Below are positions 15,827 through 20,312 of a stretch of 44,952 bases of DNA, in pieces. A model generated the notes under the pieces. That model saw only the letters and a program-made list of their open reading frames with translations. It was not told where the DNA came from and searched no databases. The DNA lies in the NCBI GenBank assembly GCA_018065065.1, contig JAGHTZ010000017.1, forward strand, positions 1 through 44,952, read 5' to 3'. Numbering within the stretch: position 1 is the first letter of the stretch; each line of letters opens with the position of its first letter. Position numbers and translations under genes: made by a program. Origin of the DNA: Candidatus Equadaptatus faecalis. Lineage in GTDB: Bacteria > Synergistota > Synergistia > Synergistales > Synergistaceae.

Positions 15827-15855
15827 TTGACTTGGTAATTCGCTAAGTATATAAT
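15827..15855 (+). promoter_or_regulatory. Strong promoter of the rimP-nusA-infB operon
   Basis: TTGACT (15827-15832), a 17-base spacer and perfect TATAAT (15850-15855). Transcription should start near 15862, so the leader before rimP is about 70 bases and must pass the hairpin at 15883-15908. Confidence 0.85.
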
Positions 15856-15882
15856 AACTAAGCTATTTCAGGAGCAGTTGCT

Positions 15883-15915
15883 GAAAGAGCGGGCAGTCCC
15901 GCTCTTTCTTTTGTT
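15883..15915 (+). terminator. Leader hairpin/attenuator before rimP
   Basis: GAAAGAGCGGG (15883-15893) pairs perfectly with CCCGCTCTTTC (15898-15908) around CAGT, followed by TTTTGTT. It lies downstream of the operon promoter and 8 bases before the rimP Shine-Dalgarno. It therefore looks like an early terminator inside the leader, not only the end of rlmB transcription. A weak alternative pairing (15866-15871 with 15881-15886) overlaps the first four bases of the stem. Confidence 0.75.
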
Positions 15916-15930
15916 AAAGGGGGGCTTGTT

Positions 15931-16431
15931 TTGGATAACGAAAAGCTTGAAGAAATTTACGCTGAGATGAAGAAGTGCATTGAAACCGAGGGGTACAACT
16001 GCGCAGGTTTCGAGCTTGTTTCCGAATGCGGCATGAATATTCTCCGCGCGTATATTGATATGCCGGGCGGCGTTGATTTGTCGGACTGCGAGACGGTCGC
16101 GAGGGTGGTTACTGATTATCTTGATACGGTTGAGAGTGCTTTGCCCGACCGTTACTATCTTGAGGTGAGTTCTCTCGGTCTTGAGCGTCCGCTTTTCTGT
16201 ATGGAGGATTACGCGGCGCAGTGCGGCAAGAAGATTGCAATAAATCTCAAGAGCGGCAAGAAACTTGAGGCGACGCTTTGCGAGGCAGCCGATGACGAAA
16301 TTGTTGTAATTGACAAATCTGGTGATAAAAGAACGATAGCTTTTGAAGATATCAGAAAAGCCAATCTGATTTACGAGGAAGAGAGCGGTCAGAAAAAGAG
16401 TTTCAAGAAAACGCCGCGCAAGAAAAAATAA
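15931..16431 (+). CDS. rimP: Ribosome maturation factor RimP
   Basis: RimP helps assemble the 30S subunit. 166 residues: an N-terminal alpha/beta domain with RAYIDMPGGVDLSDCETVARVVTDYL, the conserved EVSSLGLERPL block, and a C-terminal Sm-like barrel (KKIAINLKSGKKLEATL ... KANLIYE). The tail is Lys-rich. It starts with TTG at 15931, with AAAGGGGGG six bases upstream. It is the first gene of the rimP-nusA-ylxR-ylxQ-infB-rbfA operon, a conserved order in Gram-positive bacteria. Confidence 0.93.
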   Translation: MDNEKLEEIYAEMKKCIETEGYNCAGFELVSECGMNILRAYIDMPGGVDLSDCETVARVVTDYLDTVESALPDRYYLEVSSLGLERPLFCMEDYAAQCGKKIAINLKSGKKLEATLCEAADDEIVVIDKSGDKRTIAFEDIRKANLIYEEESGQKKSFKKTPRKKK

Positions 16432-16492
16432 CACAGGATACAGACAGTTTTATCCATATAAATTTCAATATTTTTAAGAGGGGGAACAGAAA

Positions 16493-17605
16493 ATGCTTTT
16501 GGTAAAAGATTTCGGAAAACTTCTTCATACCATTGCAGAGGAAAAAAATCTGTCGGAGGATGTTATTCGCGCAAGCCTGCAGGCGGCAATGAGCTCGGCT
16601 TACAAGAAATCCAGTCCGTACAACCAGAACAAAAACGTTGAGGCGTTTATTGACGCTGAAGGCGACCTCAAGATTGAGGAGATTCGTACCGTTGTTGAAG
16701 AGATAAAAAATCCCGACGCGGAACTGACGCTTGAAGAAGCAAGGGAAGAAGGCTATAACGACCTTGAGCTCGGCGACCAGATAAGAAAAGAAGTCAAGGT
16801 GTCTCCGGACAAGTTTGGCAGAATAGCCGCACAGACAGCGCGTCAGGTTATTATTCAGAGACTTAAGGACGCGGAGCGCCAGTATATTTACGAGCAGTTT
16901 GCGGACAAAATAGGCAACGTAATAGTCGGAAATATCTTTAAAGTTGAAGACGACCAGATTCTTATCAATCTTAATGAGAAAACGGAAGCGGTTCTTCCGA
17001 AGGATGAAAAGATTAACGGTGAAAGCTATCATGCAGGTCTGAAGATGAAATTCTTCGTGCTTGACGTCAGACAGACGACAAAAGGCCCGCGCATAGTTGT
17101 TTCAAGAACGCATCCGGGACTGCTCCGCAAGCTTATTGAGGTTGAAGTTCCCGAAATTCAGGACGGTACGGTTGAAATTCGCAGCATCGTCCGCGAAGCA
17201 GGTCTTCGCGCAAAGGTTGCGGTCAACAGCCTTGATCCGAACGTTGAGCCGCTCGGAGCCTGCGTCGGCAAACAGGGTATGCGCATAAAGGCTCTCAGCA
17301 CTGAACTTAACGGCGAAAGAATTGACGTTATAGCCTGGAGCGATGATCCGTATACGTTTATCAGAAGCGCACTGTCGCCGGCAAAAATAGTAAAAATTGA
17401 GCCGGTCGAGGGTGTGGAGCATGCCGTTACGGCTTACGTCCACAGCGAGGATCTTTCGCTTGCAATAGGCAAGGCAGGGCAGAACGTGCGTCTTGCGGCA
17501 AAAATTACAGGCTGGAAGATAGATATCAAGGTGCTTGAAGCAGAAAAGCTTCCTACGATGAAGGAACTTTTTGTTGATATAGCAAGCATTGTAAAAGAGG
17601 ACTAA
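16493..17605 (+). CDS. nusA: Transcription termination/antitermination factor NusA
   Basis: NusA binds RNA polymerase and modulates pausing, termination and antitermination. 370 residues: N-terminal polymerase-binding domain (1 to about 125), S1 domain (about 130-200), then two KH domains with GACVGKQGMRIKALSTEL and LAIGKAGQNVRLAAKIT. There are no C-terminal acidic repeats as in E. coli; this is the short Gram-positive-like form. GAGGGGG lies about 9 bases before ATG 16493. Because NusA often regulates its own operon through leader terminators, the hairpin before rimP may be relevant. Confidence 0.96.
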   Translation: MLLVKDFGKLLHTIAEEKNLSEDVIRASLQAAMSSAYKKSSPYNQNKNVEAFIDAEGDLKIEEIRTVVEEIKNPDAELTLEEAREEGYNDLELGDQIRKEVKVSPDKFGRIAAQTARQVIIQRLKDAERQYIYEQFADKIGNVIVGNIFKVEDDQILINLNEKTEAVLPKDEKINGESYHAGLKMKFFVLDVRQTTKGPRIVVSRTHPGLLRKLIEVEVPEIQDGTVEIRSIVREAGLRAKVAVNSLDPNVEPLGACVGKQGMRIKALSTELNGERIDVIAWSDDPYTFIRSALSPAKIVKIEPVEGVEHAVTAYVHSEDLSLAIGKAGQNVRLAAKITGWKIDIKVLEAEKLPTMKELFVDIASIVKED

Positions 17606-17894: not shown

Positions 17895-18223
17895 CCGAAA
17901 ACGAACGAAAAATCCTGAATCTGCTCGGCATAGCGAGAAGATCAGGGGCTATATTCATAGGTCAGGATCAGGTTCTCGAAAGCTGCAAAAAGTATAAAGC
18001 TCTGCTTGTGTTAACGTCGGACGACTGCTCTGAAAACGTACTCAAAAGCCTGAAAAACGCGGAGACGCGCATAAACGTTGAAAGAATGAAACTTAATCTT
18101 GACAGGACGCAGATGGGACAGGCAGTAGGAACAAAATCAGCTCAGATTGTATCAATGGATTACGAAAACGGTTTTGCGGGGAAAATTCTCAGTTTAATGA
18201 ACAGGAGTGATGCAGATGAGTAA
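17891..18223 (+). CDS. ylxQ: L7Ae-family ribosomal protein YlxQ-like
   Basis: A 110-residue member of the L7Ae/L30e family, which binds kink-turn RNA. NLLGIARRSGAIFIGQDQVLE is the typical start, followed by the ALLVLTSDDCSENVLK strand-helix unit and, later, GQAVGTKSAQIVSM. ATG 17891 overlaps the ylxR stop codon (ATGA) and gives the family's usual start; an in-frame TTG nine bases upstream lacks support. Its 3' end overlaps the infB start by 8 bases. Confidence 0.88.
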   Translation: MTENERKILNLLGIARRSGAIFIGQDQVLESCKKYKALLVLTSDDCSENVLKSLKNAETRINVERMKLNLDRTQMGQAVGTKSAQIVSMDYENGFAGKILSLMNRSDADE

Positions 18224-20312
18224 AATACGAATATACGATCTTGCCAAAGAGGTCGGTAAAACAAATAAAGAAGTAATGGAAATTCTTGCAGGGCTCGGCA
18301 TTGAAGTGAAATCTGCTTCAAGCTCGATAGAAGAGGCAGAAGCCGGCAAATTAAAGGCTTCCGTTTCGTCAGGCTCCGCTGAAAACAAAACCGCGGAAAA
18401 AAGCTCAAAGCCTGCCGCGGCGCAGCCTAAGCGTGGTTTGCCGCTTGTTAAAATCAAACCCGGGGCAAGCGTTGCGGACGTTGCTTCTTCCGTTGGCGAA
18501 AAATCGGGCAAGGCGGTCAAAATTCTTATGAATGCCGGTCTTATGATTTCAGCGGTTACCGCCGTTGACGACAATCTGCTCGGAGTTCTCGGCGAAGGCT
18601 TCGGCAGAAATTTTGTTTTTGCGGAGGAATACACGGAAACGGAAAATTTTGAAAGTTTTGAAGAAAAGCCCGTTGCCGCTGTCAGGAAGCCCGACAAAAA
18701 ACACGACAAAAAAGCTGAAAAGAAAGCTGAGAAAAAAGCGGAAAGACAGATTGCAAAGCAGTCTGCTGCCGCCAAGGAAGAAGAAACAGAGCAGCTTGAA
18801 CTCACGCCGAGGCCGCCGATTATTACGGTTATGGGACACGTTGACCACGGCAAAACGACGCTGCTTGACTATATACGCAATACTCACGTTACGAACAGGG
18901 AGGCAGGCGGAATTACGCAGCATATAGGCGCTTCCTGCGTAAATTACAACGGAAACACGCTTGTTTTCCTCGATACTCCGGGGCATGAGGCGTTCACTGC
19001 CATGAGGGCGCGCGGCGCTCAGGTTACGGATATCGCGATTCTCGTTGTCGCCGCCGACGACGGTCTTATGCCGCAGACAATAGAGGCTCTGAACCATGCA
19101 AAAGCGGCAAACGTACCGATTATAGTCGCGGTCAACAAAATGGACAAACCGCAGGCAAATCCTGACAGAGTACGCCAGCAGCTTTCCGATTATGGTCTCG
19201 TTCCCGAAGAATGGGGCGGCGATACGGTTATGGTAAATCTTTCAGCCAAAACCGGCGAACACGTGAACGAACTGCTTGAAATGATTATTCTTGTCGCCGA
19301 GCTTCAGGAACTCAAGGCGGCAAAGGAAGCCAAACCGCAGGGTACGGTTGTCGAAGCAAACCTCGACAAGGGCAAGGGACCGGTTGCAACGGTTATAGTT
19401 CAGAACGGAACGCTCAAACGCGGAGACATTATATACACGGATACTGCCTGGGGCAAAATCAGGGCAATGCTTGACGACAAGGGCAATATGGTCAGCAGCG
19501 CCGGACCGAGCATGCCTGTTGAAATTCTCGGACTTGAAAACGTCCCGCAGCCCGGAGAGATTTTCAAGACCTTCCCGTCAGAGCGCGAGGCCCGCGATTT
19601 TATGTCGCAGAAAGAGGTTGAACGCAGAGAGCAGATGTCTGTAAAAGCCAAGAGAGTCACCCTTGAAGAGCTTTATGACAAAATGCAGGGAGGAGAAACC
19701 CCGCAGCTGCACATAGTTCTTAAAACCGACGTTCAGGGCTCGCTTGAAGCTTTCCATGCTTCGCTTGTAAAAATGAGCACCGAAGCCGTCAGCGTGAATA
19801 TTGTTCACGAAGGCGTCGGACGCATTTCCGAATCGGACGTTATGCTTGCCGCCGCCTCGAATGCCGTTATTATAGGCTTCAACGTCAGACCTGACAGCAA
19901 CGCGAAGAAGATTGCCGAAACCGAAGGTATTCAGGTAAGACTTTATCAGGTAATTTACGATATGCTTGATGACGTTAAGGCAGCCATGGAAGGCATGCTT
20001 GCGCCCGAAATCAGGGAAAACACGCTCGGACAGGCTGAAATCCGCGATATTATCAGAGTTCCGAAGGTTGGAAACATTGCAGGCTGCCGTGTTCTTGAAG
20101 GTTCGGTGAAACGCGGAAGCGTGCGCCTTATCCGCGACGGAGTTGTTTTCTGGACGGGCGAACTTGCGAGCCTAAAACATTTTAAGGATGACGCAAGAGA
20201 AGTCAAGGCAGGAAACGAATGCGGTCTCAGCTTCGCCAAATTTCAGGATTTCAGAGTCGGCGACATCGTCGAATCCTTTGAAATTCTTAAAGAGAAGAGA
20301 ACGCTCGATTAA
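18216..20312 (+). CDS. infB: Translation initiation factor IF-2
   Basis: GTPase that brings fMet-tRNA to the 30S subunit and promotes subunit joining. About 698 residues. The N-terminal IF2_N helix unit is [20 protein letters not shown], then a Lys/Ala/Glu-rich linker and a second IF2_N-like unit. G domain: GHVDHGKTT (about 207-214), DTPGHEAFT and NKMD. The C-terminal domains (domain III and the fMet-tRNA-binding C2) follow, ending [21 protein letters not shown] 18216 is chosen because AGGAG (18203-18207) lies 8 bases upstream; in-frame GTG and ATG codons at 18207 and 18210 are too close to it. It is short compared with E. coli IF-2 (890), as in Gram-positives. Confidence 0.97.

Follow-up and report, generated by a model that had tools for sequence, protein, structure and literature searches.

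The 5' leader of the rimP-nusA-ylxR-(L7Ae-like)-infB-rbfA operon in the window (the whole stretch of 44,952 nt analyzed here) carries a hairpin that we regard with considerable confidence as a premature intrinsic terminator, the Synergistota form of the rimP-leader, where NusA most likely raises the proportion of polymerases that stop. Judging from the promoter, RNA polymerase would start near position 15862; a fraction would stop at about 15912-15915 and release an RNA of about 50-54 nt, and the remaining polymerases would read through into the operon mRNA. NusA, itself an operon product, would most likely increase the stopping fraction, such that the operon would sense NusA activity. More NusA is expected to give less readthrough, because NusA aids terminator hairpin formation and promotes polymerase pausing where a U-tract is interrupted (PMC8060035). 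Start site and termination are predicted from the letters, and the NusA dependence is carried over from other bacteria.

The gap between the end of rlmB (15806) and rimP contains, in this order, a promoter, the hairpin, TTTTGTT, the ribosome-binding site and the TTG start of rimP (Table 1). The near-consensus promoter ranks best among 5 promoter-like sites found between 14500 and 17000, where shuffled sequences give 1.6. The hairpin, GAAAGAGCGGG-CAGT-CCCGCTCTTTC, has 11 perfect pairs, 7 of them G-C, folds by itself at -18.1 kcal/mol, is present in the minimum-energy fold of the predicted 54-nt terminated RNA and lies 22 nt from the rimP start (between 15908 and 15931). The same interval holds 7 terminator-like sites for 4.3 (sd 2.7) expected, a total that is not unusual; the leader stem is the longest among them, the other 6 having 5-8 pairs. 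The earlier note on this DNA had described a near-perfect promoter ahead of the operon, and a perfect 11-bp stem with TTTTGTT before the rimP ribosome-binding site; both descriptions hold. According to Pfam, the genes are, in order, a SpoU methylase (rlmB-type), RimP, NusA, YlxR, an L7Ae-like protein, IF2, RbfA, a DHH phosphoesterase, TruB and a riboflavin kinase/FAD synthetase (ribF). The window comes from a member of the Synergistaceae; its RimP is 96% identical to that of 'MAG: Synergistaceae bacterium' JAUNNW010000016.1, the only named match.

Table 1. Features of the rimP leader and operon in the window
Feature	Position	Strand	Remark
Sigma-70-type promoter TTGACT-17-TATAAT of the rimP-nusA-infB operon	15827..15855	+	11/12 matches
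Approximate transcription start	15862	+	inferred from promoter position, 7 nt past the -10 box
Weak alternative pairing TTTCAG/CTGAAA, which shares bases with the lower end of the hairpin's 5' arm	15866..15886	+	
Terminator hairpin, 11-bp stem, CAGT loop, core GAGCGGG/CCCGCTC (rimP-leader element)	15883..15908	+	
U-tract TTTTGTT, expected 3' end of the short leader RNA	15909..15915	+	end position inferred
rimP ribosome-binding site AAAGGGGGG	15916..15924	+	by inspection
rimP, TTG start	15931..16431	+	PF02576, PF17384
nusA, proposed feedback factor	16493..17605	+	PF08529, PF13184
infB	18207..20312	+	Pfam

The arrangement was compared with a baseline from the same genome, an assembly of 100 contigs of which the window is contig 17. 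This baseline covers 247,937 bases in 21 pieces, with 199 codon-scored gene calls, and holds 61 terminator-like hairpins, 14 of which are found no more than 80 nt ahead of a gene start. A promoter-like site stands 15-65 nt upstream of 5 of the 61, and 4 of these 5 hairpins are not before a gene start. The order promoter, hairpin, gene start occurs once, at the rimP leader.

Our results showed that the hairpin is conserved among the bacterial relatives examined. Of 52 family genomes, 44 contained the pattern AGAGYGGG-N2-10-CCCRCTCTT, while the reversed-pattern control gave 0; 42 of these 44 had it once, G014 had one extra site and G045 two. The pattern lies just upstream of rimP in all 43 genomes that have rimP together with upstream sequence. 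Altogether, 43 of the 47 sites are at rimP, 3 are elsewhere (in 2 genomes) and 1, in G027, is unassigned, as it could not be linked to a rimP match. Six of the 8 genomes without the pattern lack a rimP match (G003, G010, G012, G034, G035, and G039), and in the other 2 a contig ends just upstream of rimP (G019 and G022). The three hairpins away from rimP (G045 C4:43763 and C5:19210; G014 C1:360194) have a AGAGCGGG/CCCGCTCTT stem.

For the wider phylum, we examined the region upstream of rimP at 114 loci in 55 genera; at 113 of them it holds a hairpin of the GAGNGGG...CCCNCTC type followed by a T-rich tail. The pattern also admits close forms (a few GAGCAGG or CCTGCTC), and loci of one genus are not independent. 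Of the 114 loci, 44 (L002 among them) belong to the family and 70 come from a set of 108 further genomes in which rimP was matched; L032 and L041, at contig ends, were excluded. The sole miss, L096, shows by eye a shorter GGAGTGG..CCTCTCC. As 113 of 114 upstream regions fit the pattern, the hairpin is not a product of chance. The comparison of leaders in relatives, proposed in the earlier note as a check, supports a leader terminator.

The stem letters vary in a paired manner. At the pair between GAG/CTC and GGG/CCC (pair 3), 43 genera have T-A, 4 have C-G (including that of the window) and 8 have T-G; at the next pair inward (pair 4), 51 genera have G-C and 3 have A-T, and the foot pairs vary among A-T, G-C and G-T over the 113 loci. 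The other five core pairs have identical letters in 113/113 loci, but these letters (GAG/CTC and GGG/CCC) were required by the search patterns, so that their constancy is partly by construction and the informative figure is the number of regions that meet the demand, not the constancy. Mismatches in the core are limited to genus g22, whose leaders (L089, L090, L091, L096, L098, L100, L103, L105, L108, L116, and L117) show an internal mismatch or shifted pairing. The mismatch or shift sits where others have T-A or C-G, which gives a weaker stem that the automatic stem search missed.

A stem variant is also seen in six leaders of family f5 (L071, L072, L078, L109, L111, and L114), reading GCGAAGAGCAGG...CCTGCTCTTCG in four and GCGAAGAGTGGG...CCTGCTCTTCGCC in two. 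In these leaders the foot of the stem has a complement farther upstream, GCGCCTT or CCGCCTT, and by eye the foot complementarity is clearest here (against AAGGCG or GGGGCG). This upstream element is a possible antiterminator; its pairing gives p 0.21-0.51 in the four genera tested. Since GAG-GG/CC-CTC is kept at nearly all loci and other pairs covary, the stem may be a sequence-specific binding site. That a protein (NusA, RimP, YlxR or L7Ae-like) reads the GAGYGGG/CCCRCTC stem, with a lineage-specific antiterminator in some genera, is a tentative reading of these letters that we consider unlikely. The leader set, in which covarying pairs stand against near-constant letters, makes the question of what, if anything, recognizes the stem specifically testable.

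The hairpin keeps company with a promoter and with rimP, and not with the gene upstream. Promoter-like hexamer pairs precede it in 112 of 113 loci, as the best hit of a scan that had no shuffle control, with a median of 32 nt (range 16-84) from the -10-like box to the stem core; such a site is absent in L035. The upstream neighbor was surveyed with Pfam for 10 frames at 10 loci, taking at each locus the closest long frame, which stood 74-304 nt ahead of the core; 2 of the frames had no match. In place of the rlmB-type gene of the window, we found an oxidoreductase, an IMP dehydrogenase, a UPF0227 protein and an indigoidine-synthase-like protein, and in two loci frames on the opposite strand (a symporter and a methyltransferase). 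Because of the conservation, the stem covariation, the similar distance to promoter-like sites and the independence from the upstream gene, it is well supported that a leader terminator would be passed by every transcript from this promoter, as the earlier note had it.

Very probably, the hairpin represents an attenuator known from earlier work, the rimP-leader. Naville & Gautheret (2010, PMC2965389) called it the most ubiquitous transcription attenuator and proposed feedback by NusA; their rimP-leader section describes a GGGc...gCCC hairpin (c and g in lower case), a T-stretch and a stem-to-start distance of 4-130 nt. With this description the leader of the window shares a premature terminator upstream of rimP-nusA-infB, a G-rich 5' arm and a C-rich 3' arm, the GGG...CCC with T-stretch (here GAGCGGG-CAGT-CCCGCTC followed by TTTTGTT), the lack of an evident antiterminator and a fitting stem-to-TTG distance. 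Within the family, a motif specific to the leader is shared as well. The Synergistota core is mostly GAGYGGG...CCCRCTC, so that GAG/CTC is added relative to the published motif. The c...g beside GGG/CCC is not found in the window, where c stands opposite t (GGGcagtCCC), and occurs in 17 of 104 loci with a plain core; we take the lower-case letters of that description as a tendency, not a strict requirement. Its rimP-leader section does not name a Synergistota leader, and we found no publication on one in the literature searched, which was scarcely aimed at Synergistota.

Related leaders are known from other bacteria. For the same operon of S. agalactiae (gbs0413-gbs0418), RNA-seq detected two RNAs, short and long, that share a start site; the short RNA stops 31 nt downstream of this start, where an intrinsic terminator is predicted, and NusA feedback was proposed (PMC4448216). 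That 31-nt leader is supported by RNA-seq, whereas the Synergistota leader of about 50-54 nt is predicted from sequence only. In B. subtilis, a 2025 review (PMC12288461, citing Mondal 2016) describes NusA as autoregulated through NusA-stimulated intrinsic termination in the nusA 5' leader; this was reported from experiments, in contrast to the present case. For E. coli, PMC6511841 mentions two terminators upstream of rimP and describes the operon as regulated by its own product NusA. We find tandem terminators in the MG1655 rimP leader, GCCCCG..CGGGGT upstream and GGGC..GCCC with T7, which agrees with what is written in PMC2965389 about Gammaproteobacteria. The suggestion of the earlier note, a candidate feedback attenuator, is therefore right in kind but not new: the leader terminator is supported here, and NusA feedback is the published reading for other bacteria.

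Rfam RF01770 (rimP, a model of 102 positions) is named for the same leader, yet it gave no match in the genome of the window, while it matches E. coli among 14 control genomes. At the gathering cut-off, Rfam found 5 tRNAs only in the window, and relaxed searches of the window returned weak matches only (mir-2217, 17.3 bits for a cut-off of 60; L20 leader, 16.7 for 58.7). The model thus misses the Synergistota leader in the one genome searched with it. The present set extends the rimP-leader attenuator across 55 Synergistota genera with strong comparative support.

Other explanations of the hairpin were weighed against a NusA-responsive terminator. It begins 76 nt past the rlmB stop codon and could also end rlmB transcripts; as an ordinary 3' terminator of rlmB, however, it would be separated from its gene by a promoter, and the nearest long upstream frame of relatives is another gene or lies on the opposite strand while the hairpin stays with rimP. 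We rejected this explanation, which has hardly any probability left. Almost as improbable is the idea that the short terminated RNA serves as an independent small RNA that has a target of its own. PMC5391140 counts the rimP leader among the attenuator-derived RNAs associated with ProQ, but the leaders upstream of the stem differ by eye between genera and the terminator stays. A constitutive, NusA-independent partial terminator, giving a fixed low output or insulation from upstream readthrough without regulation, deserves more weight, and we still consider it improbable. A stem as perfect and stable as this one speaks for it, as a strong terminator can work without NusA, and so does the lack of a clearly conserved antiterminator. 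It would not need, on the other hand, a pattern that fixes most core letters beyond mere pairing at nearly all loci, nor one whose close form is nearly exclusive to the rimP leader in the family, which is more than a plain terminator needs. Moreover, the corresponding leader terminator is reported to be NusA-stimulated in B. subtilis (PMC12288461) and proposed to be so in S. agalactiae (PMC4448216).

To the same degree doubtful is a switch in which an upstream helix (TTTCAG/CTGAAA in the window) acts as antiterminator against the terminator foot. The weaker upstream pairing described in the earlier note does exist and overlaps the 5' arm: TTTCAG (15866-15871) pairs with CTGAAA (15881-15886), covering the lowest 4 stem bases of the hairpin. 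At -4.5 kcal/mol, against -18.1 for the hairpin, it is not clearly beyond chance (p 0.075 versus shuffles). Relatives give weak encouragement at best: of 12 family leaders that were aligned (out of 44), 11 retain TTCAG together with CTGGA or CTGAA, but by eye no compensatory change was seen in these 12, where changes were one-sided or broke the helix. A pairing test was run on one locus per genus, with a promoter distance of 22-63 nt and no fewer than 10 nt ahead of the stem, which covered 49 of the 55 genera; for g5 the locus, L009, starts at a contig edge and the promoter call is doubtful. Compared with their reversed counterparts, the real upstream strings gave better pairing in 29 genera, poorer pairing in 13 and the same in 7 (Wilcoxon p 0.011). 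Against this, p was below 0.05 in 5 of 49 genera with a combined p of 0.062, and a phylum-wide antiterminator is not established by these values. The 2010 description, where it treats this leader, likewise sees no visible antiterminator, several Gammaproteobacteria excepted (PMC2965389).

Several minor observations concern the leader and its surroundings. The CGCTCTTT of the 3' arm resembles an rrn boxA; this reading was dropped, as CTCTT plus one base was found within 260 nt in 3 of 15 rrn upstream regions (9 genomes), in three different places. A leader peptide was also dropped on inspection by eye: L005, L008 and L015 have an ATG behind a GGAG stretch, and no such ATG was seen in the window, L009, L011, L012, L014 or L018. 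On the minus strand, an open frame of 188 aa (15868-16434) runs antisense to rimP and its leader; it exceeds rimP in length but is probably spurious, codon scoring favoring rimP. The genome of the window gave no 16S rRNA match despite a stated completeness of 100, which is probably an assembly gap. Elsewhere in this genome, another terminator-like hairpin before a gene start (L131:8418-8448, AAAGAGTGAGAG...CTCTCACTCTTTTTTT) has a stem resembling that of the rimP leader, without GGG/CCC. Finally, the fold of the longer leader (15862-15945) has a z of -2.13, with 6 of 200 shuffles equally good. In this model, bases 5' of the hairpin pair with the stretch of the rimP ribosome-binding site and start, a pairing that could hide the rimP start in the read-through RNA.
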